NCBI RefSeq assembly: GCF_016907715.1
Contig: NZ_JAFBCM010000001.1
Span: 2,170,001 to 2,234,000, forward strand
DNA length: 64,000 nucleotides
Direction of reading: 5' to 3'
Source of the DNA: Tenggerimyces flavus
Lineage (GTDB): Bacteria > Actinomycetota > Actinomycetes > Propionibacteriales > Actinopolymorphaceae
Shown: positions 16,510-26,694 of the stretch, one piece after another
Layout of the letters: each line of letters starts with the position of its first letter
How positions within the stretch are numbered: the first letter of the stretch is position 1
Notes under the pieces: model-generated
The model's input: only the letters and a program-made list of their open reading frames with translations
The model's database searches: none
What the model was told of the DNA's origin: nothing
Made by a program: the position numbers and the translations under genes

Positions 16510-17175
16510 GTGGACACCCAAGCGCGTCGAGCGCTCGTCGTGCGCGGAGGCTGGGACGGACACGTTCCCGTCGAATGCACCGATCGGTTCATCCCGTTCA
16601 TCGAGGAGAACGGCTTCAGCGTCGAAGTCTCCGACACCCTCGACTCCTACCTCGATGCCGAGAGCCTGTCTGGAACCGATCTCATCCTGCAGATCTGGAC
16701 CATGGGCGAGATCACCAAGGAGCAGCGCGAGGGGCTGGACAAGGCGATCCGGGCCGGCACCGGGTTCGCCGGTTGGCATGGCGGAGTCGCTGACGCGTTC
16801 CGCGCCGACCTCGAGTACAACTTCATCGTCGGTGGACAGTTCATCTCCCACCCGCACGGCTTCGTCGACTACGACGTGAACGTTCTGCCCGACAAGGCAG
16901 ATCACCCGATCGTCAAGGGCATCGAGAAGTTCCACGTGCACACGGAGCAGTACTACATCCACGCCGACCCGAGCAACGACGTGCTGGCGACGACGACGTT
17001 TCCCGCACACGAGAACTACCCCTGGATCGAAGGGGTCGTGATGCCGGCCGTCTGGACCCGCACCTGGGGCGATGGCCGCGTCTTCGTCACCACCGTCGGC
17101 CACAAGTTGGACGACCTCGACACCCCCGAAGTTCGCACGATCATCGAAAGAGGCTTGCTATGGGCGACTCGCTGA
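16510..17175 (+). CDS. ThuA domain-containing protein
   Basis: The 221-residue protein has a class I glutamine-amidotransferase-like fold of the ThuA type: RALVVRGGWDGHVPVE, GTGFAGWHGGVADAFR (the HGG turn), GGQFISHPHGFVDYDV, HTEQYYIH, PAVWTRTWGDGRVFVTTVGH. ThuA proteins accompany sugar ABC importers and Gfo/Idh dehydrogenases, where ThuA/ThuB take part in keto-disaccharide (trehalose-type) metabolism; the exact reaction is not settled. The GTG start has GGAGG about 10 nt upstream. Its end overlaps the following Gfo/Idh gene by 16 nt, so the two are coupled. Confidence 0.93.
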   Translation: MDTQARRALVVRGGWDGHVPVECTDRFIPFIEENGFSVEVSDTLDSYLDAESLSGTDLILQIWTMGEITKEQREGLDKAIRAGTGFAGWHGGVADAFRADLEYNFIVGGQFISHPHGFVDYDVNVLPDKADHPIVKGIEKFHVHTEQYYIHADPSNDVLATTTFPAHENYPWIEGVVMPAVWTRTWGDGRVFVTTVGHKLDDLDTPEVRTIIERGLLWATR

Positions 17176-18257
17176 GGATCGGATTCGTCGGCACCGGAAC
17201 GATCAGCGCCACGTACTTCGATCACCTCGCGAAGCTGAACGGCGTGGAGGTCGTCGCGGCGGCCGACCTCGACGCGGCGCGCGTCAAGAAGGTCGCGGAG
17301 GAACGCGGCATCCGCGCGCTGACGCCGGACGAGCTCTACGCCGACCCCGACGTCGACGCGGTCCTGAACCTCACGATCCCGGCCGCGCACGCGTCGGTGT
17401 CGCTCGCCGCGCTCGGCGCCGGCAAGCACGTGTACGGGGAGAAGCCGCTCGCCGTCACGCGGCAGGAGGCGCGCCCGATTCTCGAGGCGGCCGACGCGAC
17501 CGGCCTGCGGGTCGGCTGTGCGCCGGACACCGTGCTCGGTACGGGAACGCAGACCGCGCGGGTGCTGCTCGACCGCGGTGACATCGGCCAGCCGACGGCC
17601 GCGACGGCGTTCTTCACCAGCCCCGGCCCGGAGCCGTGGCACCCGGACCCGGAGTTCTACTACAAGCCCGGCGGCGGCCCGCTGCTCGACATGGGGCCGT
17701 ACTACCTGTCGGCGCTCGTCACGCTGCTCGGCCCGGTGAAGACGGTGACCGGACGGTCCACCCGGGCGAAGCTCGAACGTACGGTCGGCAGCGGCCCGAA
17801 GCAGGGCACGTCGTTCACCGTCGACGTCGAGACGCACATCACCGGCGTGCTCGAGCACGAGTCCGGGGTGCTCACGACCGTGATCACGAGCTTCGACGTG
17901 TGGGGCGCGCGGCTGCCGCGGATCGAGATCTACGGCAGTGACGGCACGCTCTCGGTGCCCGACCCGAACACGTTCGCCGGCGACGTCGAGGTCTACTCGC
18001 CGTCGTCGCACGAGTGGTCCGTCGCGGAGACGGCCGGCGGCTACGCCGAGTCGGGCCGCGGCTTCGGCCTCGCCGACATGGCGCGCGCGATCCGTACCGA
18101 CGGCAAGCACCGCGCGAGTGGTGCGCTCGCATTCCACGTCCTCGACGTGATGGAGTCGCTGCTCGATTCCGCAATGCAGGAAAAGGCCGTCAATGTGGAA
18201 AGCACTGTGGAACGTCCAGATGCCGTACCACTGGGGGCGACGCCCGACCAGGGGTGA
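17160..18257 (+). CDS. Gfo/Idh/MocA-family oxidoreductase
   Basis: The 365-residue NAD(P)-dependent sugar dehydrogenase has an N-terminal Rossmann fold (IGFVGTGTISATYFDHL), the family signature YGEKPLAV (Lys is catalytic) and a C-terminal substrate domain with GGGPLLDMGPYYLSALVTLLGPV. It overlaps the ThuA gene. The pair looks like the ThuA-ThuB type module that oxidises a disaccharide or inositol-like sugar to a keto form. A hairpin at 18318-18360 closes the unit. Confidence 0.93.
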   Translation: MGDSLRIGFVGTGTISATYFDHLAKLNGVEVVAAADLDAARVKKVAEERGIRALTPDELYADPDVDAVLNLTIPAAHASVSLAALGAGKHVYGEKPLAVTRQEARPILEAADATGLRVGCAPDTVLGTGTQTARVLLDRGDIGQPTAATAFFTSPGPEPWHPDPEFYYKPGGGPLLDMGPYYLSALVTLLGPVKTVTGRSTRAKLERTVGSGPKQGTSFTVDVETHITGVLEHESGVLTTVITSFDVWGARLPRIEIYGSDGTLSVPDPNTFAGDVEVYSPSSHEWSVAETAGGYAESGRGFGLADMARAIRTDGKHRASGALAFHVLDVMESLLDSAMQEKAVNVESTVERPDAVPLGATPDQG

Positions 18258-18921: not shown

Positions 18922-20091
18922 TCACGGATTGTTCGCGTGGGTCAGGGTCTCCCACGCGAGGAAGTAGTTCGCCCCAGTCGGGCGCAGCTTCTTCTCCAGC
19001 AGGCGACCGGTCTTCGGAAGGGGCCGGTGCTTGCGGTTGTGGTAGTGGTTGTAGGCGATCTCCAAGGTCGGCCCGAGGCCGGGCTTGACCGTTCCGCCGC
19101 ACAGCCATTGCGGGGCCGGAACGCCGAGTTCGTACTTGGCGTGGAATTCCAAGGCCTTGGTGATGCGTTCCTCGGCCTCAGCGTAGAGGTCCCAACCTTG
19201 GAGCCTCGCGGTCTCCGCGACGTGGACCGCGGCCTCGAATCCCCAACCTGTATGGCCAAAGTCCCTGCAGGTCTCCTGGGCAAGGCCGTCGACGAAGGTC
19301 GTCTGGTTCTGCCAGTACTTGATCAACAGCTCGGGTGTGTTCTTCGTGCCGCGCGGAGGCGGGTACGGGAGCGGGCCATCCTCCTCCAGATAGATGTAGG
19401 CGGGAACGCGGGCGCGCCATCGCGCGACCGCGGCGGCGAACGCCTCGTGGTCGTCGAGGAAGACGGCGATGCCGATCGCCGCGTCGGTCATGATCAGCTC
19501 CCAGTTGCCGTTCTTGTCCGGCGCGCCCTCGAGGACGACGGGCAGGTAGACGGTGCGGAGCATGGTGGCGAACCGGTCCTGGCCTTCCGGCGCCCAGCCG
19601 TCGTAGGTGTGTTTGATCAGCTCCGCAGCGCGTGACCAGGAGGCGCCTGACCAGCCCGTTTGCAGTGGCGCGTTGCTGTTGGTGTGGTCCTTGATCGTCC
19701 CGGACCAGGCGTCCATGATCGCGATCGCCTTGTCGGCGTAGCGGCGATCCTTCGTGAGGTACCAGTTCAGCGCGTGCGTGTACGCCGCGAGGGCGTCGTT
19801 GCGTTCGTCGGTGCAGCCGAAGTTCGGGTTGGAGCTCGAGCCGCACTCGACGATCTCGCGTGGCTTGGGCTGCCAGTCGAGGCTGGCGTACGTACTCGCC
19901 GTCAGCTGCTCGTACGCGGACTTCCACGGCTCGGCGCCCTGGGCGAGCTTGGTCCTGACGAGATCGAGCTGCGGCCGGCTGACGAGGACGCCGGGATGGG
20001 TGAACGTGACTTCCGCTGTCGCGGTGCCCACTAGGGCGCTGGCGCTGAGGGCGATCGTGGTCGTGAGCGCGAGGATCCACCTTCTGTGCAT
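18922..20091 (-). CDS. Secreted alginate lyase family protein (paralogue 1)
   Basis: The 389-residue protein has a Sec signal peptide (MHRRWILALTTTIALSASAL, cleavage near TATAE). It has the alginate-lyase-like (alpha/alpha) toroid motifs HPGVLVSRPQLDLVRTKL, NGNWELIMTDAAIGIAVFLDD and ETCRDFGHTGWGFEAAVHVAE. Lyases of this superfamily break uronic-acid polysaccharides by beta-elimination; the true polymer is not known. ATG 20091 has AAAGGAG upstream. It is a tandem paralogue of the gene at 20145-21326, with most blocks identical. Two LacI-type palindromes lie just upstream (20104-20135), so sugar-dependent repression is likely. Confidence 0.85.
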   Translation of the reverse strand: MHRRWILALTTTIALSASALVGTATAEVTFTHPGVLVSRPQLDLVRTKLAQGAEPWKSAYEQLTASTYASLDWQPKPREIVECGSSSNPNFGCTDERNDALAAYTHALNWYLTKDRRYADKAIAIMDAWSGTIKDHTNSNAPLQTGWSGASWSRAAELIKHTYDGWAPEGQDRFATMLRTVYLPVVLEGAPDKNGNWELIMTDAAIGIAVFLDDHEAFAAAVARWRARVPAYIYLEEDGPLPYPPPRGTKNTPELLIKYWQNQTTFVDGLAQETCRDFGHTGWGFEAAVHVAETARLQGWDLYAEAEERITKALEFHAKYELGVPAPQWLCGGTVKPGLGPTLEIAYNHYHNRKHRPLPKTGRLLEKKLRPTGANYFLAWETLTHANNP

Positions 20092-20103
20092 CTGGTCTCC
20101 TTT

Positions 20104-20135
20104 GGGCAAGCGGTTGCCCGGCAAGCGGTTGCCGG
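20104..20135. promoter_or_regulatory. Two tandem LacI-type operators GGCAAGCGGTTGCC
   Basis: GGCAAGCGGTTGCC occurs at 20105-20118 and again at 20120-20133, in the short gap between the two lyase genes and 13 bp before the first gene's ATG. Each is an inverted repeat with a central CG, typical of LacI-family sites. A third form, GGCAAGCGCTTGCC, lies before the second lyase gene (21386-21399). Confidence 0.6.
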
Positions 20136-20144
20136 CCTACGGGC

Positions 20145-21326
20145 CTACGGGTTGGAGGCGTGGGTGAGCGTCTCCCAGCCGAAGAAGTGGCTGGTGCCGT
20201 ACGGGCGGAGCTGCTGGGCGAGGCGGCCCGTGCGGGGCATCGGGATGTGCAGGCGGTTGTGGTAGTGGTTGTAGGCGATCTCGACGTTCGGGCCGAGGCC
20301 CTTCTTGATCGTGCCGTTGCAGAGCCAGCTCTCCGCGGGAACGCCGAGGTCGTACTTGGCGTGGAACTCGTACGCCTTGACCAGCCGCTCGCGCGCCTCG
20401 GCGTAGAGGTCGAGGCCCTGGATTCTGGCGGTCTCGGCGACGTGGGCGGCGGCGTTGAATCCCCAAGCGGTGTGGCCGAAGTCGCGGCAGGTCTCCTGGG
20501 CGAGGCCGTCGACGAACGTGGTCTGGTTCTGCCAGTACTTGATCAGCGCCGCCTCTTCCTCCTTGCCGCCGTTGGGTGGGGGCTTGGGGAGGCGGCCGTC
20601 GCTTCGCAGGTAGATGTAGGCGGGAACGCGGCCGCGCCAGGTGGCGACGGCGTCGTTGAACGCCTGGCGATCGTCGAGGAAGACGGCGATGCCGATCGCG
20701 GCGTCGGTCATGATCAGTTCCCAGTTGCCGTTGTAGCTCGGCCTGGCGTTGGCGCCGGTGATGCCCGGGAGGTAGACGGTGCGGAGCATGGTGGCGAACC
20801 GGTCCAGGCTCTGCGGCGCCCAGCCGTTGTAGGTGTGTTTGATCAGCTCGCCGGCACGTGACCAGGAGGCGCCGGACCAGCCGGTCTGCAGCGGAGCGTT
20901 GTGGTTGGTGTGGCCCTTGATCGTTCGTGCCCAGGCGTCCATGATCGCGATCGCCTTGTCGGCGTAGCGGGGATCCTTGGTGAGGTACCAGTTCAGCGCG
21001 TGCGTGTAGGCGGCGAGCGCGTCGTTGCGTTCCTCGCTGCAGCCGAGGTTGGGCGTGGAGTACGGGCCGCACTCGACGAGCTCGCGCGGCTTGGGCTGGT
21101 AGTCGAGGCTGGCGAGCGTGCTGGCCGTCATGGCCTGGTACGCGGTCGTCCACGGCTCGGCGCCCTGGGCGAGCTTGGCCCGGACGTGGTCGAGCTGCGG
21201 GCGGCTGACGAGGACGCCCGGATGCACGAACCCGCTGTCAGCCGCACTCGCTGGGTTGGCGGCGAGCGTGGCGCCGAGGACGGCGACCGCGGTGGCGAGC
21301 GTGGCAATGATCCGATGTCTGCGCAT
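20145..21326 (-). CDS. Secreted alginate lyase family protein (paralogue 2)
   Basis: The 393-residue protein has a signal peptide (MRRHRIIATLATAVAVLGAT, cleavage near ASAAD) and the same alginate-lyase-like domain as its neighbour: HPGVLVSRPQLDHVRAKL, NGNWELIMTDAAIGIAVFLDD, ETCRDFGHTAWGFNAAAHVAE and ALNWYLTKDPRYADKAIAIMDAW. ATG 21326 has GGAGG at 7-nt spacing, which decides the start over upstream in-frame codons. It is transcribed first in the pair. The operator at 21386-21399 lies 60 bp upstream. By eye about three quarters of aligned residues match paralogue 1, suggesting a recent duplication. Confidence 0.87.
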   Translation of the reverse strand: MRRHRIIATLATAVAVLGATLAANPASAADSGFVHPGVLVSRPQLDHVRAKLAQGAEPWTTAYQAMTASTLASLDYQPKPRELVECGPYSTPNLGCSEERNDALAAYTHALNWYLTKDPRYADKAIAIMDAWARTIKGHTNHNAPLQTGWSGASWSRAGELIKHTYNGWAPQSLDRFATMLRTVYLPGITGANARPSYNGNWELIMTDAAIGIAVFLDDRQAFNDAVATWRGRVPAYIYLRSDGRLPKPPPNGGKEEEAALIKYWQNQTTFVDGLAQETCRDFGHTAWGFNAAAHVAETARIQGLDLYAEARERLVKAYEFHAKYDLGVPAESWLCNGTIKKGLGPNVEIAYNHYHNRLHIPMPRTGRLAQQLRPYGTSHFFGWETLTHASNP

Positions 21327-21385
21327 ACGAAGACCTCCGGCGACGGGGGCGGATCTTCGCATTCTCAGCGTTGAACCTGCAGCTG

Positions 21386-21399
21386 GGCAAGCGCTTGCC
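21386..21399. promoter_or_regulatory. LacI-type operator GGCAAGCGCTTGCC
   Basis: A perfect 14-bp palindrome with a central CG lies 60 bp upstream of the lyase start on the minus strand. A related half-site (AGTTGCCA) follows at 21403. No LacI gene is adjacent; the cognate regulator may lie elsewhere. Confidence 0.6.
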
Positions 21400-21507
21400 A
21401 AGAGTTGCCATCGAACTCGTGGACGGCCGATTCATCTGATCTATTGTGAGCGGCGCACGTAACCGACCTATGTAGATTAAGGCACGGTGTGTGATGAGGT
21501 CCGATCC

Positions 21508-21592: not shown

Positions 21593-21646
21593 TCTCCGCG
21601 TGGAGGAGGTGGCGTGAGGGAAGCGGGCGGTTGGCATGATCGCGGG

Positions 21647-22420
21647 ATGGTTCACAGCATGGGAGCGGTGACCGACCGCGTCGTCGACAGGTACGGGGAG
21701 CTCCAGGGTCTGGTGCTGTGCTTCGGGCAGGGCTCGGCTGTCATGGGGTTCAGTGAGTCGTCGGACCTGGATCTGGTGATGGTGTGGGTGGACGGCGTTC
21801 CGGCCGCCGCGGGGCGGCCGATCCACGCGCTCGCCGCCGCGGGGTCGGAGCCCAAGCAGTTCGACGGGTCGTTCGGCGGGCTGGACAAGCTGCAGGTGGA
21901 CGGCTGGGAGGTCGACGTCAGCCACTGCGCGCTCGCTTCGTTCGAACGGTGGCTCAGCGAGGTGCACGAGGGCGACGGCTGGCAGGTGGAAGAGTGGCCC
22001 CAACCGCTGCACAGCGTGGCAGGCTTCGCGTACGGGCAGATCCTGGCCGATCCCAGCAACGTCGGGGCGCGTGCTCAGTCCGCGCTCGCGTCGTTTCCTC
22101 CACTCCTCGTCACCAAGAGCGCCGAACGGCTCGCGCAGGACTGGGAAGCTCTGCGGCCCGAGCTGGCTCGCTGCGTCGAACGTTCGGACGGCTGGCTCTT
22201 CCACCAGCTGTCCGGCCCACTCGTGCGGGTCGCGTACGTCGCCTGGCTCGCGGCGCAGCATCGCTACTGCCCGTTCCCCAAACACCTGCGGTCGTGGGCC
22301 ATCCGACTCTCGCTCGACCCCGCGCTGGTCGACGCCGAGCGCCAGATGTGGAACGGGACCCTGGCCGATCGACTTGACGCACTCACCACGTTCGTCGAGG
22401 GCATCCTTCGCTGGGGTTAG
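21647..22420 (+). CDS. Nucleotidyltransferase-domain protein
   Basis: The 257-residue protein has a Pol-beta-superfamily nucleotidyltransferase core near its N-terminus: LCFGQGSAVMGFSESSDLDLVMVW (G-S ... S-D-L-D, two metal-binding Asp). A helical C-terminal half with LSGPLVRVAYVAWLAAQHRYCPFPKHLRSWA resembles DUF4037-type proteins. The family adds nucleotides to proteins or small molecules; the substrate here is unknown. ATG 21647 has CATGAT 8 nt upstream (leaderless); ATG 21659 is possible. Its stop overlaps the stop of the convergent sigma-factor gene by 4 bp. Confidence 0.78.
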   Translation: MVHSMGAVTDRVVDRYGELQGLVLCFGQGSAVMGFSESSDLDLVMVWVDGVPAAAGRPIHALAAAGSEPKQFDGSFGGLDKLQVDGWEVDVSHCALASFERWLSEVHEGDGWQVEEWPQPLHSVAGFAYGQILADPSNVGARAQSALASFPPLLVTKSAERLAQDWEALRPELARCVERSDGWLFHQLSGPLVRVAYVAWLAAQHRYCPFPKHLRSWAIRLSLDPALVDAERQMWNGTLADRLDALTTFVEGILRWG

Positions 22421-23397
22421 TGGAGGGTGAGGGCGACGCGGAGGAAGTCGGGCTTGGTCTCGGCGATCTCCACCTCGAGCTCCTGCCCCACCTTCAATGC
22501 CGCGCCGTGCTGGTCTGACGTGTGGACCAGGCCGTGGACGTCGCCGATGTCGACGAAGGCGCCGAACGGGAGGATCGAGTGCACCCGACCCGTACGGACC
22601 TCGCCGACCTGCAGGGCCGCGATGAGAGCACGACGGCGCGCGAAGGCGGCGGCTTCGTCCGCGGCGACGGGCAGGGTCACCACCACCCGGGAACGGGCCT
22701 CGTCGACCTCTGACACCAACACCTCGAGCGTCTGCCCGACGAGAAGCTCCGGATCCGGGGAATGCCCCCGCGACTGGCCGCGAACGACGAGCAACGCGGG
22801 GATGCCGATGTCGACGTTCCAGCCGATCTTCCACACCTCCAGCACCCGAGCCGAGACCAACCGGTCAGTGCCAGCGAGGGCAACGGCCTCGCTCCATGAG
22901 TGAAGACGCAACGGTTCCTCCAAGAGGGGTTCAGTGAACTGGCCGCGCAAGACGCGCAGCCCGCGGTGGATGTGCTGAGCGACAGATCCGGGCGAGATGC
23001 CGAGCGCTCCGGCGACGGCGGCCTGGCTCAGGCCGCCCAGGTAGCGCAGCGCGATGGCCTCCCGCTGCCGGAGCGGCAGTGCTCGCAGTGCAGCGATCAG
23101 GGCGACCCGGAGCGTGGCCGCGTCCTGTTCGTCGGACAGCGCCGAGAAGTCGGAGTCGAGCTCCACGGCACGGTCGCGAGACCGCACGGCATCGATGGCG
23201 AGGTTCGTCGCCACGCGCAGGACCCACCCCGTCCGGTACGAGGACGAGCCGATCCGGTCCCATTGCGCGTAAGCCCGCGCCAGTGCTTCCGAAGCCACGT
23301 CCTCCGCGGCAGCGGACCCCACGATCCGCGCCGCCAGCCGCACCGCCCGGGGATACAGGTCCTGGAACGCGATGGTGAAGTCCCGCTCGTCAGTCAT
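22417..23397 (-). CDS. ECF-type sigma factor fused to two S1-like RNA-binding domains
   Basis: The 326-residue protein starts as an ECF sigma factor: region 2 at residues about 7-73 (FQDLYPRAVRLAARIVGS, EDVASEALARAYAQWDRI, TGWVLRVATNLAIDAVR) and region 4 at about 95-153 (LRALPLRQREAIALRYLGGLSQAAVAGALGISPGSVAQHIHRG). The C-terminal half is unusual. Residues about 168-242 look like a degenerate S1/OB fold, and residues about 262-325 are a canonical S1 domain (GEVRTGRVHSILPFGAFVDI, GLVHTSDQ). S1 domains bind single-stranded RNA. No anti-sigma gene lies beside it, so the extension may regulate the sigma factor or tether it to RNA or ribosomes. I do not recall a named ECF group with S1 domains. 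Confidence 0.9.
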   Translation of the reverse strand: MTDERDFTIAFQDLYPRAVRLAARIVGSAAAEDVASEALARAYAQWDRIGSSSYRTGWVLRVATNLAIDAVRSRDRAVELDSDFSALSDEQDAATLRVALIAALRALPLRQREAIALRYLGGLSQAAVAGALGISPGSVAQHIHRGLRVLRGQFTEPLLEEPLRLHSWSEAVALAGTDRLVSARVLEVWKIGWNVDIGIPALLVVRGQSRGHSPDPELLVGQTLEVLVSEVDEARSRVVVTLPVAADEAAAFARRRALIAALQVGEVRTGRVHSILPFGAFVDIGDVHGLVHTSDQHGAALKVGQELEVEIAETKPDFLRVALTLH

Positions 23398-23446
23398 CTC
23401 TCCTAGTAGACGACGAGCGGGACCCTTTCGATGACAAGCCGGACAG

Positions 23447-24322
23447 CTAGCCCTTCACACCTGTCAGCGTGATGCCCTGGATGAACGTCCGCTGTGCGAA
23501 GAAGAACACCACGATCACCGGGATCACCACCACGGTCGACGCCGCCATCAGCGGGCCGAACTGGGTCGCGTACTCGCCGCGGAAGAACGTCAGACCCAGC
23601 GACAGCGTGTACGAGTCCGCGTCCGACAGGTAGATCAGCGGCCCCAGCAGGTCGTTCCACGACGCCAGGAACTGGAACAGCGCCACGGCGGCCAGCGCCG
23701 GCTTGGCCAGCGGCAGGATGATCCGCCAGTAGATCACCAGCTCGTTCGCGCCATCCAGCCGCGCCGATTCCGACATCTCCCTGGGAATCGACAGGAAGAA
23801 CTGCCGCAGCAGGAAGATGAAGAACGGCACGCCGAAGAAGTGCGGCACGATCAGCGGCAGGTACGTGTTCGTCCAGCCCAGCCCGCGGAACATCGTGAAC
23901 AGCGGCACCATCGTCACGTAGAACGGCACCATCAGCGTCGACAGCAGGATGACGAACAGAGGCGTCCGCCACCGCCACTCGATCCGCGACAGCCCGTACG
24001 CGACGAACGACGACGACAGCACCGCGCCGATCATCGAGAACACGCAGATGATCAACGTGTTGAACAGGTACCGCCCGAACGGGAAGACCTGCAGCCCCGC
24101 GACGTAGTTCTCCAACGTCAACGTGTCGGGGAACCACACGACCGGGAACGCGTTCAGATCCTCACCGGTCTTCAGCGAACCCGACACCATCCAGAAGAAC
24201 GGGATGAGGAACATCACGCTCAGCACGATCAACGCGGCGTGCGTGACGATCTTCTCGACGAGCTTCAGCCACCAGTTCGGTGCCCGCACTCCCGCCGTTC
24301 CGGTGCTCGTAGCGACAGCCAT
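23447..24322 (-). CDS. Sugar ABC transporter permease (MalG/CUT1 type)
   Basis: The 291-residue inner-membrane permease has six membrane segments and the EAA loop (MSESARLDGANELVIYWRIILPLAKPALAAVALFQFLASWND). The first segment follows a short cytoplasmic N-terminus (VTHAALIVLSVMFLIPFFWM). It is the last gene of a three-gene importer: solute-binding protein, MalF-type and MalG-type permeases. ATG 24322 has GGAGG upstream. No ATP-binding subunit is encoded nearby; CUT1 importers of actinobacteria often share an MsiK-type ATPase. The operator near 26762 suggests it belongs to the rhamnose regulon. Confidence 0.95.
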   Translation of the reverse strand: MAVATSTGTAGVRAPNWWLKLVEKIVTHAALIVLSVMFLIPFFWMVSGSLKTGEDLNAFPVVWFPDTLTLENYVAGLQVFPFGRYLFNTLIICVFSMIGAVLSSSFVAYGLSRIEWRWRTPLFVILLSTLMVPFYVTMVPLFTMFRGLGWTNTYLPLIVPHFFGVPFFIFLLRQFFLSIPREMSESARLDGANELVIYWRIILPLAKPALAAVALFQFLASWNDLLGPLIYLSDADSYTLSLGLTFFRGEYATQFGPLMAASTVVVIPVIVVFFFAQRTFIQGITLTGVKG

Positions 24323-24334
24323 GTGGACGCCTCC

Positions 24335-25291
24335 CTAGGACCCGGCGTAGTAGACCCGTCGGCCCACCAGCCGGAACACCAGCAGGGTGGCCAGGGCGAC
24401 GATGATGAACAGCACCCACGCGATCGCGCTCGCGTAGCCCACCTTGAAGAACTGGAAGGCGTTCTGGAACAGGTAGAGGCCGGAGACCGTCGTCGACCCG
24501 GCCGGGCCGCCCGTTCCGTTGCTGAGCACGAAGATCGGCGTGAAGAACTGGAACCCCGCGATCAGACCGGTCACCAACGCGAACAACAGGTGCGGACTGA
24601 GGAACGGCAGGCTCACATGGCGGAACCGGCGGAGAGCACCGGCGCCGTCGACCTTCGCCTGGTCGTGCAGATCCTGCGGTACGTCCTGCAGACCGGCAAG
24701 CAGGATGATCATCAGGTTCCCCGCGCCCCACGTGCTGAAGATGATGATCGCCGGCATCGCCCACAACGGGTCGGCGAGCCAACCAGGCCCGGTGATGCCG
24801 AACCAGCCGAGGATCGTGTTGAACACGCCGAACTGCGGGTTGAACACGTACAGCCAGACGACTGCTGACGCCACCAGCGGCACGATCGCAGGCAGATAGA
24901 AGATCACCCGATAGATGGACTTGCCACGGATGTTGAGATTCAGCAACAGGGCAAGGATGAGCGCGACGACGATCCCGATCGGGACGCTCAGCACCACGTA
25001 GTAGAACGTGTTGTAGAGCGACTGCCACCAGGTCGGATCCTTCATCAGCGCGGCGTAGTTGGTGAAGCCGATCCACTTCGGCGAGCGGACCATCGTCGCC
25101 GAGGTGAAGCTGTAGTAGATCGAGGCGAGCACCGGGTACGCGGTGAACCACAGCAGCCCGATGATGCCGGGCGACGTGAACACCAATCCCCAGAAGAGAT
25201 TGCGGCGTTGTGCTGGTGTCGCACGGGAACGCTTGCGCGGAACGCCGGTAGCGGGTGCTGTCTGCGACGGGTTCGATGCGGTGGTGGTCAT
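24335..25291 (-). CDS. Sugar ABC transporter permease (MalF/UgpA type)
   Basis: The 318-residue permease has six membrane segments and the EAA loop (QDVPQDLHDQAKVDGAGALRRFRHVSLPFLSP). The N-terminal 30 residues are cytoplasmic and Arg-rich (GVPRKRSRATPAQRRNLFWG). Its start overlaps the stop of the solute-binding protein gene (ATGA, 25288-25291), and the partner permease follows after 12 bp. It forms the heterodimeric channel with the MalG-type protein. Confidence 0.95.
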   Translation of the reverse strand: MTTTASNPSQTAPATGVPRKRSRATPAQRRNLFWGLVFTSPGIIGLLWFTAYPVLASIYYSFTSATMVRSPKWIGFTNYAALMKDPTWWQSLYNTFYYVVLSVPIGIVVALILALLLNLNIRGKSIYRVIFYLPAIVPLVASAVVWLYVFNPQFGVFNTILGWFGITGPGWLADPLWAMPAIIIFSTWGAGNLMIILLAGLQDVPQDLHDQAKVDGAGALRRFRHVSLPFLSPHLLFALVTGLIAGFQFFTPIFVLSNGTGGPAGSTTVSGLYLFQNAFQFFKVGYASAIAWVLFIIVALATLLVFRLVGRRVYYAGS

Positions 25292-26694
25292 ACCGCCTTG
25301 ACCTCCTTCCGGAACCTCTCCAGCTCGGTTTCCGTCTCGGACCGCACCGTACGCATGGCCTGCAGCGGCGTCTTCTGTCCGAACAGCGCCGCGTTGACCT
25401 CCATGTCGAGCTTCTGGAAGAAGAAGTCCGAGACAGGGAAGGGCGGACGGATGTTCGTCGCCGTGGTGAGAACGTCGTAGTACGGCTTGAAGACCTCGTC
25501 GTTCTTCAGCAGATCAAGCACCGGCGACTTGTTGTACGCGGGCGGGTAGCCGGTCGTCTCCCACTGCGCCATCGTGCCCTCGTCCGACGCGGTCACCCAG
25601 CGCATGAACTCGAACGCCTCGTCCTTGTACTTCGCGCTGGTGGGGATGAACATTCCCCAACCACCGATCCACGCGCCGGCGCCGATCCGATCCGCACCCG
25701 GGGCGGCGTACGGGAGCTGCCCGGTGCCGATCTCCATGTCCTTGACGTTCGCGAGGATGTCCCGGTAGTTCGGCGCGACGAGCGGCGCCATACCGACGTT
25801 GCCGGTGCCGAACACGTGAATCTGCAGACCGGGCGGCGTGATCGCCAGCCGGTCCGGTCCGCCGGCACGCTTGGCGTAGTCGACGATCCACTCCAACGCC
25901 TTGACGACGTACTCGTTGTCCGGCGTGATCTGACCGGTGTCCTTGTCGAAGAACGAGCCGCCGAACGCCCAACCCCACGTGAACATCGAGTTGGACGCAC
26001 CGTACGAGTCCCACGGCACCATGCCGATGCGGGCGATGTTCGGGCCGTTCTTCTTGAGGATCTTCGCGGAGTACTCGTCGACCTCTTCGATGGTCTGCGG
26101 CGGCTTCTCCGGGTCCAGACCGGCTTCCTCGAACACCTTCTTGTTCCAGAAGAACGGGAAGTTCGGGTCCGCGTCCCAGTGCAGCTGGAAGATCTTGTCC
26201 TCGTAGCTGATGCTCTCCCAGATCGGCGGGAAGAAGTCGTCCTGGGTCAGTCCCGCGGCCTTGAACCGATCGGTGAGGTCGGTCATGATCCCGAGGTCCG
26301 CCCACTGTGGAGTCTGCGAGGGGACCAGTTGGGCGATGTCGGGCGGGTTCTCACCGGCGATGGCGACGAACAGCTTCTGCTGAACGCTGCCGCCTCCCAC
26401 GCCCGCTGGGGCGTAGACGACGCGGACACCGATGTCGTCCTGGGCTTCCTCGAACCGCTTGGCCAGGTTGACCATTCCGACGCCGCCAGTGCCTCCCCAG
26501 ACGCTGTACAGCTCGATGTTGACCTTGCGCCCGGGCGCTGGCTTCTTGTCCAACCCATGCTCGTCGATAGGCGGTGAGCCCCTGGTAATCGTGCAACCTG
26601 ACCCGAGGAGGCCCGCCGCGCTGATGCCGCCGAGCAGCTTCAGCGCGGATCGCCGGCTCAGGGCCGAACCTCGTCGTGGCTGGGGAGAGGCCAT
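25288..26694 (-). CDS. ABC transporter sugar-binding lipoprotein (Tat type)
   Basis: The 468-residue extracytoplasmic solute-binding protein (family 1) has a twin-arginine signal (SRRSALKLLGGISAAG) and lipobox LLGSGC with Cys34 as the lipid anchor. Binding-protein blocks include GGVGMVNLAKRFEEAQ, EEVDEYSAKILKK, GNVGMAPLVAPNYRD, GWGMFIPTSAKYKDEAFEFMRWVTASDEGTMAQW. The ligand is a sugar or oligosaccharide. A rhamnoside is my inference, because a TGAAACGATTTG site (26762-26773) lies 68 bp upstream and matches the site before the rha operon in 10 of 12 positions. ATG 26694 follows AGGAGG. Confidence 0.94.
   Translation of the reverse strand: MASPQPRRGSALSRRSALKLLGGISAAGLLGSGCTITRGSPPIDEHGLDKKPAPGRKVNIELYSVWGGTGGVGMVNLAKRFEEAQDDIGVRVVYAPAGVGGGSVQQKLFVAIAGENPPDIAQLVPSQTPQWADLGIMTDLTDRFKAAGLTQDDFFPPIWESISYEDKIFQLHWDADPNFPFFWNKKVFEEAGLDPEKPPQTIEEVDEYSAKILKKNGPNIARIGMVPWDSYGASNSMFTWGWAFGGSFFDKDTGQITPDNEYVVKALEWIVDYAKRAGGPDRLAITPPGLQIHVFGTGNVGMAPLVAPNYRDILANVKDMEIGTGQLPYAAPGADRIGAGAWIGGWGMFIPTSAKYKDEAFEFMRWVTASDEGTMAQWETTGYPPAYNKSPVLDLLKNDEVFKPYYDVLTTATNIRPPFPVSDFFFQKLDMEVNAALFGQKTPLQAMRTVRSETETELERFRKEVKAV

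Follow-up and report, generated by a model that had tools for sequence, protein, structure and literature searches.

An extracytoplasmic function sigma factor of Tenggerimyces flavus with a C-terminal tail colinear with domains 2-3 of ribosomal protein bS1

A 64,000-nucleotide (nt) stretch of the Tenggerimyces flavus genome (contig NZ_JAFBCM010000001.1, positions 2,170,001 to 2,234,000; hereafter the window) carries a gene for an extracytoplasmic function (ECF) sigma factor joined to two C-terminal S1/OB domains. This fusion architecture is confirmed by profile matches, a structure model and further copies of the gene. The two S1 domains, S1a and S1b, follow domains 2 and 3 of ribosomal protein bS1 in order, and the gene is preceded by a promoter-like pair of elements found ahead of every copy. 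The reading favoured here, at a probability of about 0.5, is an ECF sigma factor that is self-contained, regulates its own gene and is gated by an RNA-binding tail built into its chain. The gene and the parts of its product are:

22417..23397, minus strand: ECF sigma factor with C-terminal bS1-like S1-S1 tail, 326 residues, coordinates including the stop codon
23170..23367, minus strand: sigma region 2, residues 11-76 (PF04542 Sigma70_r2, 5.2e-10)
22954..23106, minus strand: sigma region 4, residues 98-148 (PF08281 Sigma70_r4_2, 1.6e-15)
22675..22866, minus strand: S1a, bS1 domain-2-like OB barrel, residues 178-241 (PF00575, 24.0 bits)
22618..22662, minus strand: helix 246-260 linking S1a to S1b, located where bS1 has its inter-domain segment
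22447..22611, minus strand: S1b, bS1 domain-3-like, residues 263-317 by Pfam with the barrel reaching 325 (PF00575, 42.4 bits)

The open reading frame (ORF) starts with ATG, contains zero internal stops over its 326 residues and has a GC content at third codon positions of 0.87; the remaining ORFs called between 14 and 32 kb range from 0.78 to 0.95. Matches to Sigma70_r2, Sigma70_r4_2 and S1 all exceeded the curated Pfam cut-offs within one chain, which bears out both the complete sigma2/sigma4 module claimed by the initial annotation of this DNA and the combination of families that it had proposed to search for. The two sigma matches were separated by a gap of 21 residues, and no sigma3, sigma1 or SnoaL family was present among the 14 Pfam matches up to E 1. 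With sigma2 and sigma4 over their cut-offs and neither sigma3 nor sigma1, the protein is an ECF (group 4) sigma70 factor, and it scored 67.5 bits with TIGR02937 (cut-off 42.9). Pfam S1 (PF00575) matched at 2.9e-16 in two stretches, the best being 263-317. At 42.4 bits and with a modelled barrel at 267-325, this second stretch is the C-terminal S1 domain that the initial annotation had described. The "degenerate" copy that it had placed upstream is present as well; its 24.0 bits exceed the PF00575 cut-off of 22, and the copy thus counts as an S1 domain. Eight S1 matches were obtained in a scan of the whole genome: four in the ORF of the genome's own four-domain rpsA, two in the fusion gene, and one each in ORFs of 794 and 801 residues.

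The AlphaFold2 model, likewise proposed by the initial annotation, contains helices up to residue 154 and two five-stranded OB barrels (181-241 and 267-325) with a helix between them. Its mean predicted local distance difference test score was 87.2; the alignment behind it included bS1 and sigma-only rows, and the relative placement of the domains is not given by it because the predicted template modelling score (pTM) was 0.38. When the model was compared with the PDB by Foldseek, rows 1-12 held bS1 and further S1-domain or ribosomal entries, and ECF sigma factors appeared from row 13. Three more intact ORFs, 40-56% identical, have the same chain order, which argues that the architecture is not a product of chance.

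By sequence comparison, the tail follows domains 2-3 of actinobacterial bS1 in order and is not a pair of generic S1 copies. Residues 167-325 align with residues 112-276 of bS1 without rearrangement. With a profile of five copies, S1a matched R2 of bS1 best (26.8 bits vs 20.2, 15.3, and 5.6) and S1b matched R3 best (91.5 bits vs 63.0, 19.0, and 12.8); when the copies were taken singly, S1b favoured R3 in all five. Modelled alone, S1a had E. coli bS1 93-178 as its top fold row at Z 10.4, tied with the S1 domain of RNase II at 9.8, and this match to bS1 domain 2 is not independent, as the alignment of the S1a model contained bS1 domain 2 rows. The fusion differs from bS1 (rpsA) in having two domains only, joined to a sigma factor, and at 73.7 bits it did not reach the rpsA equivalog cut-offs of 691 and 368.

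The published RNA-contact residues of the S1 domain are, in PNPase numbering, Phe19, Phe22, His34, Asp64, and Arg68 (PMC6705787, as far as that source was seen). At these positions the window S1b has F278, F281, H292, K315, and R320, so that four of the five are kept. Across six aligned S1b copies, the Phe19 and His34 positions were kept in 6/6 and those of Phe22 and Arg68 in 5/6. The window S1a lacks Phe/Phe/His at the F19, F22, and H34 positions. Because the contact residues are kept in S1b but these three are absent from S1a, S1b is a plausible RNA binder and S1a is not, as with D3 and D2 of bS1; in the portion of PMC10931766 consulted, bS1 D1-D2 anchor to a polymerase subunit of Q-beta replicase and D3 contacts RNA. 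The two S1-like domains of the initial annotation were thus upheld and refined to bS1 domains 2-3 in order, with contact residues in the second alone. The fusion protein would therewith be a candidate RNA-binding protein.

The fusion occurred in 3/8 genomes of the family to which the window genome belongs, with four genes in total, two of which (G007a and G007b) lie about 12 kb apart in one genome, G007. Another fusion, with a frame break, was found in a metagenome-assembled genome (MAG) of a Streptosporangiales bacterium (Dino_bin12) among the at least 33 loci of a genome contig scan, in which absence among the matches listed means little. A sixth copy came from a Solirubrobacterales MAG (L070:600-1206): its sigma part stops within region 4, S1b follows in another frame, S1a is absent, and the promoter boxes are present. 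The frame breaks of the two MAG copies may be MAG assembly errors. Between five copies, pairwise identity ranged from 31 to 51% in S1a and from 40 to 61% in S1b. Among 391 genomes of the order (E 1e-22) no candidate ranked near the four known fusions, and no further fusion was found among 396 genomes of the phylum (E 1e-42), 394 of the class (E 1e-36) and samples of 66 and 176 drawn from two other classes (E 1e-36); the order, phylum and class samples overlap, and part of the candidates per genome was scored. Two tail-only matches in ORFs of 590-605 residues from the other-class samples were taken as bS1. Phages yielded one weak record; five plasmid records matched the tail, and four of these carry a bS1 annotation.

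Ahead of the gene lie the following elements:

23427..23436, minus strand: -35-like element TGTCATCGAA, predicted own promoter
23407..23412, minus strand: -10-like element CGTCTA, 9 nt ahead of the ATG, with a predicted near-leaderless mRNA
23400..23404, minus strand: AGGAG, 2 nt ahead of the ATG, Shine-Dalgarno-like and closer than usual

The pattern TGTCATCGAA-N14-CGTSTA was located upstream of 6/6 copies with 0-3 mismatches and 24 nt from start to start. In a leave-out matrix scan of both strands, the true site ranked first in five of the six loci (of 127,940, 38,942, 21,942, 33,978, and 18,322 positions) and second of 39,922 in the sixth, where the first rank went to the site of the other fusion gene at the same locus; the matrix applied to the two G007 copies was built from the four copies in other genomes. 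The start codon followed the -10 hexamer by 4-9 nt in 6/6 copies and was in frame in 5/6. Upstream of the G005 fusion (L031), the ATG of the predicted site and the sigma ORF are in different frames across a short repeated stretch, which may be an assembly error or point to another start. As a control, TGTC-N20-CGT with a nearby start codon in any frame appeared in 63/5000 random 200-nt stretches; the start-codon criterion was fixed after some sequences had been seen, and it accepts TGTC or GGTC for genes and TGTC only for the control. Standard promoter geometry with a start 4-9 nt past the second box predicts a leader of about 0-3 nt. The exact pair occurred once in the window genome, ahead of the fusion gene, which makes it probable that this gene is autoregulated and its mRNA near-leaderless. 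Since bS1 was reported as dispensable only for leaderless mRNAs (PMC10931766, in the part seen), a link between that exception and the near-leaderless fusion mRNA can be speculated upon.

With up to two mismatches, the pair was found at 28 sites in the genomes G000, G005, and G007, compared with 4 for the reversed pattern. Five sites had 0 or 1 mismatch, namely the four fusion promoters and one within a long ORF. The remaining 23 had two mismatches; 22 of them lay within called ORFs on either strand, and one (L161) was intergenic and had no start called in the adjoining 250 nt. For six of the 22, a called gene start follows after 88-235 nt, and these six may still be promoters; the labels of the simple ORF caller are rough, as two true fusion promoters were marked as inside because the caller extends ORFs upstream. 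A search for TGTCA-N19-CGTSTA in G000 returned two sites, the own promoter and L163, the latter having only a GTG and an ATG some way off. At the contrasting spacing of N15, none of the own promoters matched.

The 18 nearest sigma-only relatives found, 15 from 386 phylum genomes (13 genomes with a match, G000 included) and 3 among the matches listed in the genome contig scan, all lacked the S1 tail. Seventeen of the 18 are directly followed on the same strand by a gene for a membrane-anchored protein, in which about 30-50 residues precede a hydrophobic stretch near the N-terminus and a longer part comes after it. By the longest reading of each downstream ORF, this coupled gene and the sigma gene share 4-35 nt in 16 relatives, and in one the coupled gene starts 120 nt past the sigma gene. 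Exactly one hydrophobic stretch was counted in 15/17 proteins and two in the others, with four ORFs running off the locus. Five aligned coupled proteins share an Arg-rich inner segment, and two of the five proteins tested with Pfam have outer parts that match PD40 or DUF4232. By position and topology, the coupled protein is a putative anti-sigma factor. The eighteenth relative (L174, genome G426), from the same wider clade, is a 414-residue sigma ORF with a different C-terminal extension of 224 residues, and no coupled membrane gene was found there.

No overlapping membrane-protein gene was present at any of the six fusion loci; G007a was read from the ORF list, since the coupled-gene scan had picked up the G007b gene there. 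Because the fusion loci lack the coupled gene of the sigma-only relatives, the S1 tail may have replaced the membrane partner. In a maximum-likelihood tree of 34 sigma domains, the four complete fusions grouped together among sigma-only rows with support of 94/98 and in 92% of 200 bootstrap trees. Most simply read, the bS1 piece would have been gained once and the membrane partner lost, the direction of this exchange being one that we infer. The pair with an in-frame start was also seen in 6/18 sigma-only relatives (5 with TGTC and 1 with GGTC), so that this promoter type is probably older than the S1 tail. Adjacent to the fusion ORF, both neighbouring genes were checked and neither is an anti-sigma gene; one encodes an ABC permease and the other has no Pfam family, in agreement with the initial annotation. 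Its idea that the extension may act as a built-in regulator gains comparative support, since the S1 tail stands where the relatives have the coupled membrane protein.

Under the favoured reading, the sigma2/sigma4 module would recognise TGTCATCGAA-N14-CGTSTA ahead of its own gene, and the tail, a tandem presumably derived from bS1 domains 2-3, would be a cytoplasmic RNA-responsive regulator in place of a membrane-anchored partner. The D2-like domain may pack against the sigma factor or RNA polymerase, and the D3-like domain would hold RNA. Sigma4 is located near the RNA exit of the polymerase, which could bring the emerging transcript within reach of the D3-like domain. When the sigma factor is not on the polymerase, it could be held back by abundant RNA or by ribosomes; the sequence does not separate such sequestration from action at the RNA exit. 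We infer the use of the promoter, the gating, the sign of its effect and the signal. A fuller version, offered tentatively as a possibility below even odds, is a sigma factor that reads RNA: bS1 domains 2-3 would have been captured in exchange for a membrane anti-sigma, transcript or ribosome state would gate the factor in place of an envelope signal, the D3-like domain would hold nascent or free RNA, and the gene's own mRNA, transcribed from its own promoter, would be near-leaderless and so close to the leaderless kind for which bS1 is reported to be dispensable.

Several points weigh against the favoured reading. The Asp64 position is Lys (K315) in the window and Asp in just 3/6 copies, and S1a is divergent; taken singly, S1a favoured R2 in 3/5 copies, the L066 copy favouring R4 and G007b having no clear preference. 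No regulon target beyond the gene itself was recognised in the motif scans of G000, G005, and G007, and the motif was first seen in the same sequences that were then used for testing. None of the five coupled proteins tested contained a Pfam anti-sigma domain. At L066 and L070, an ORF that begins with a hydrophobic segment lies on the same strand, 111 and 67 nt downstream, respectively; the products of both are putative secreted enzymes with signal peptides. The support of the fusion clade lies just under the level starred by the tree tool, the tree leaves out L066 and L070, and the AlphaFold2 model provides no trusted placement of the domains (pTM 0.38).

Among the alternatives, an exit-channel device survives best, although we consider it rather doubtful. 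Here, the tail would grip the nascent transcript while sigma4 is on the polymerase, as in the S1 of NusA and bS1 on Q-beta replicase, and would alter promoter escape, pausing or sigma retention without an on/off switch. NusA resembles the fusion in that it acts together with RNA polymerase and contains an S1 domain, and residues 244-325 of the fusion matched its S1 fold (4mtn, Z 12.2), a value level with those of further S1 domains (RpsA 4nnh, for example, at 12.0); NusA differs in that no KH domain was among the Pfam matches of the fusion, whose S1 is attached to a sigma factor. Together with the suggested location of the NusA S1 at the exit channel (PMC6624301, in the part seen), this fold match makes the exit model concrete. 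As far as PMC10931766 was seen, bS1 associates with RNA polymerase and promotes transcriptional cycling, but the published effect involves D5-D6 and not D2-D3, and no sequence feature of the fusion demonstrates polymerase contact.

It is unlikely that the OB domains now form a protein- or ligand-binding regulatory extension that has lost RNA binding. Such a scaffold would resemble the SnoaL-like tails of ECF41 (SigJ, Ecf41Bli), which in the part of PMC3426412 seen also has no anti-sigma gene and a fused C-terminal extension, with a promoter of the -35 TGTCA and -10 CGT type before the sigma gene or operon, and it would agree with the S1a and Asp64 changes; the conserved contact positions of S1b and the kept bS1 domain order argue against it. 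The predicted promoter of the fusion gene resembles that of ECF41, with TGTCATC and CGTC at 24 nt from start to start. TGTCACA-16-CGTC of ECF41 corresponds to 23 nt, with 16 +/- 1 allowed (same source), so that the spacer of the fusion gene is one longer. The groups differ in the tail, SnoaL-like in ECF41 (PMC8999054, in part) and bS1-like S1-S1 in the window protein, and in their neighbours, a decarboxylase, oxidoreductase or epimerase in ECF41 compared with the ABC permease and the convergent gene next to the fusion gene, where an oxidoreductase gene lies at a greater distance (17160-18257). ECF41 membership was ruled out by the tail, which has S1 and two OB barrels and no SnoaL. Finally, a decaying accession, a chance fusion briefly kept in few lineages with a functionless tail, would suit the patchy occurrence in 3/8 family genomes, the loss of S1a and frame in the Solirubrobacterales copy, the broken Dino_bin12 frame and the out-of-frame G005 start, but it is very improbable given the identity kept between five copies, the promoter pair in 6/6 and MAG frame breaks of possibly technical origin.

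The fusion protein was also compared with other known groups. According to the part of PMC8999054 seen, at least 26 ECF groups have N- or C-terminal extensions and 15 groups are still to be studied; the extensions described are SnoaL, TPR, WD40, Cys-rich, zinc-finger/transmembrane (TM), carbohydrate-binding or protease-degraded, none of them RNA-binding, and for many of the 26 groups their nature is not stated. The tails of ECF42, ECF52, ECF56, and ECF238 (TPR, TM/zinc finger, SnoaL, and Cys-rich, respectively) are among these, none being described there as S1, OB or RNA-binding, and it is by the descriptions of this one review that known groups with tails are set apart from the fusion. Phrase searches of open papers, viewed mostly as listings and not covering the 2021 ECF classification, returned no report of an S1 or RNA-binding domain joined to an ECF sigma factor. 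The best NCBIfam match by E-value was the SigE family (TIGR02983), and membership was rejected at 111.3 bits, below the cut-off of 141.55.

The convergent gene at 21614-22420 (plus strand) overlaps the end of the fusion gene by 4 nt; it has no Pfam family above cut-off and a sub-threshold DUF4037 match (E 0.024). The gene preceding the fusion ORF encodes the ABC permease and belongs to sugar-type ABC transporter genes at 23447-26694 (minus strand; two permeases and a binding protein), the last of which stops about 50 nt short of the sigma gene. Read-through from these genes into the sigma gene is possible despite its own promoter boxes. No gene context common to the fusions was seen when ORF lists were compared by eye, and Rfam gave nothing over the gathering score within the window. 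A tandem pair of similar, secreted-looking proteins is encoded at 18922-20124 and 20145-21401 (minus strand), the former matching Alginate_lyase PF05426 at 7.4e-19. Among the sigma-only relatives, the proteins with a hydrophobic stretch whose short inner segment is Arg-rich, whose genes overlap ECF sigma genes and for which Pfam gives no anti-sigma name (L166:251-1462, minus; L067:4862-5698, plus; L068:2425-3267, plus; L178:344-1486, minus; L171:1970-2692, plus) are possibly an unrecognised anti-sigma family.

ECF sigma factors are a main route by which outside signals are linked to promoters in bacteria. If the favoured reading is true, a lineage that can be traced would have exchanged its membrane partner for part of the ribosome as regulator, and control of promoter choice by RNA or translation state through a sigma factor could be tested directly. 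The fusion would also supply a defined promoter together with a compact component for building a sigma switch that responds to RNA.
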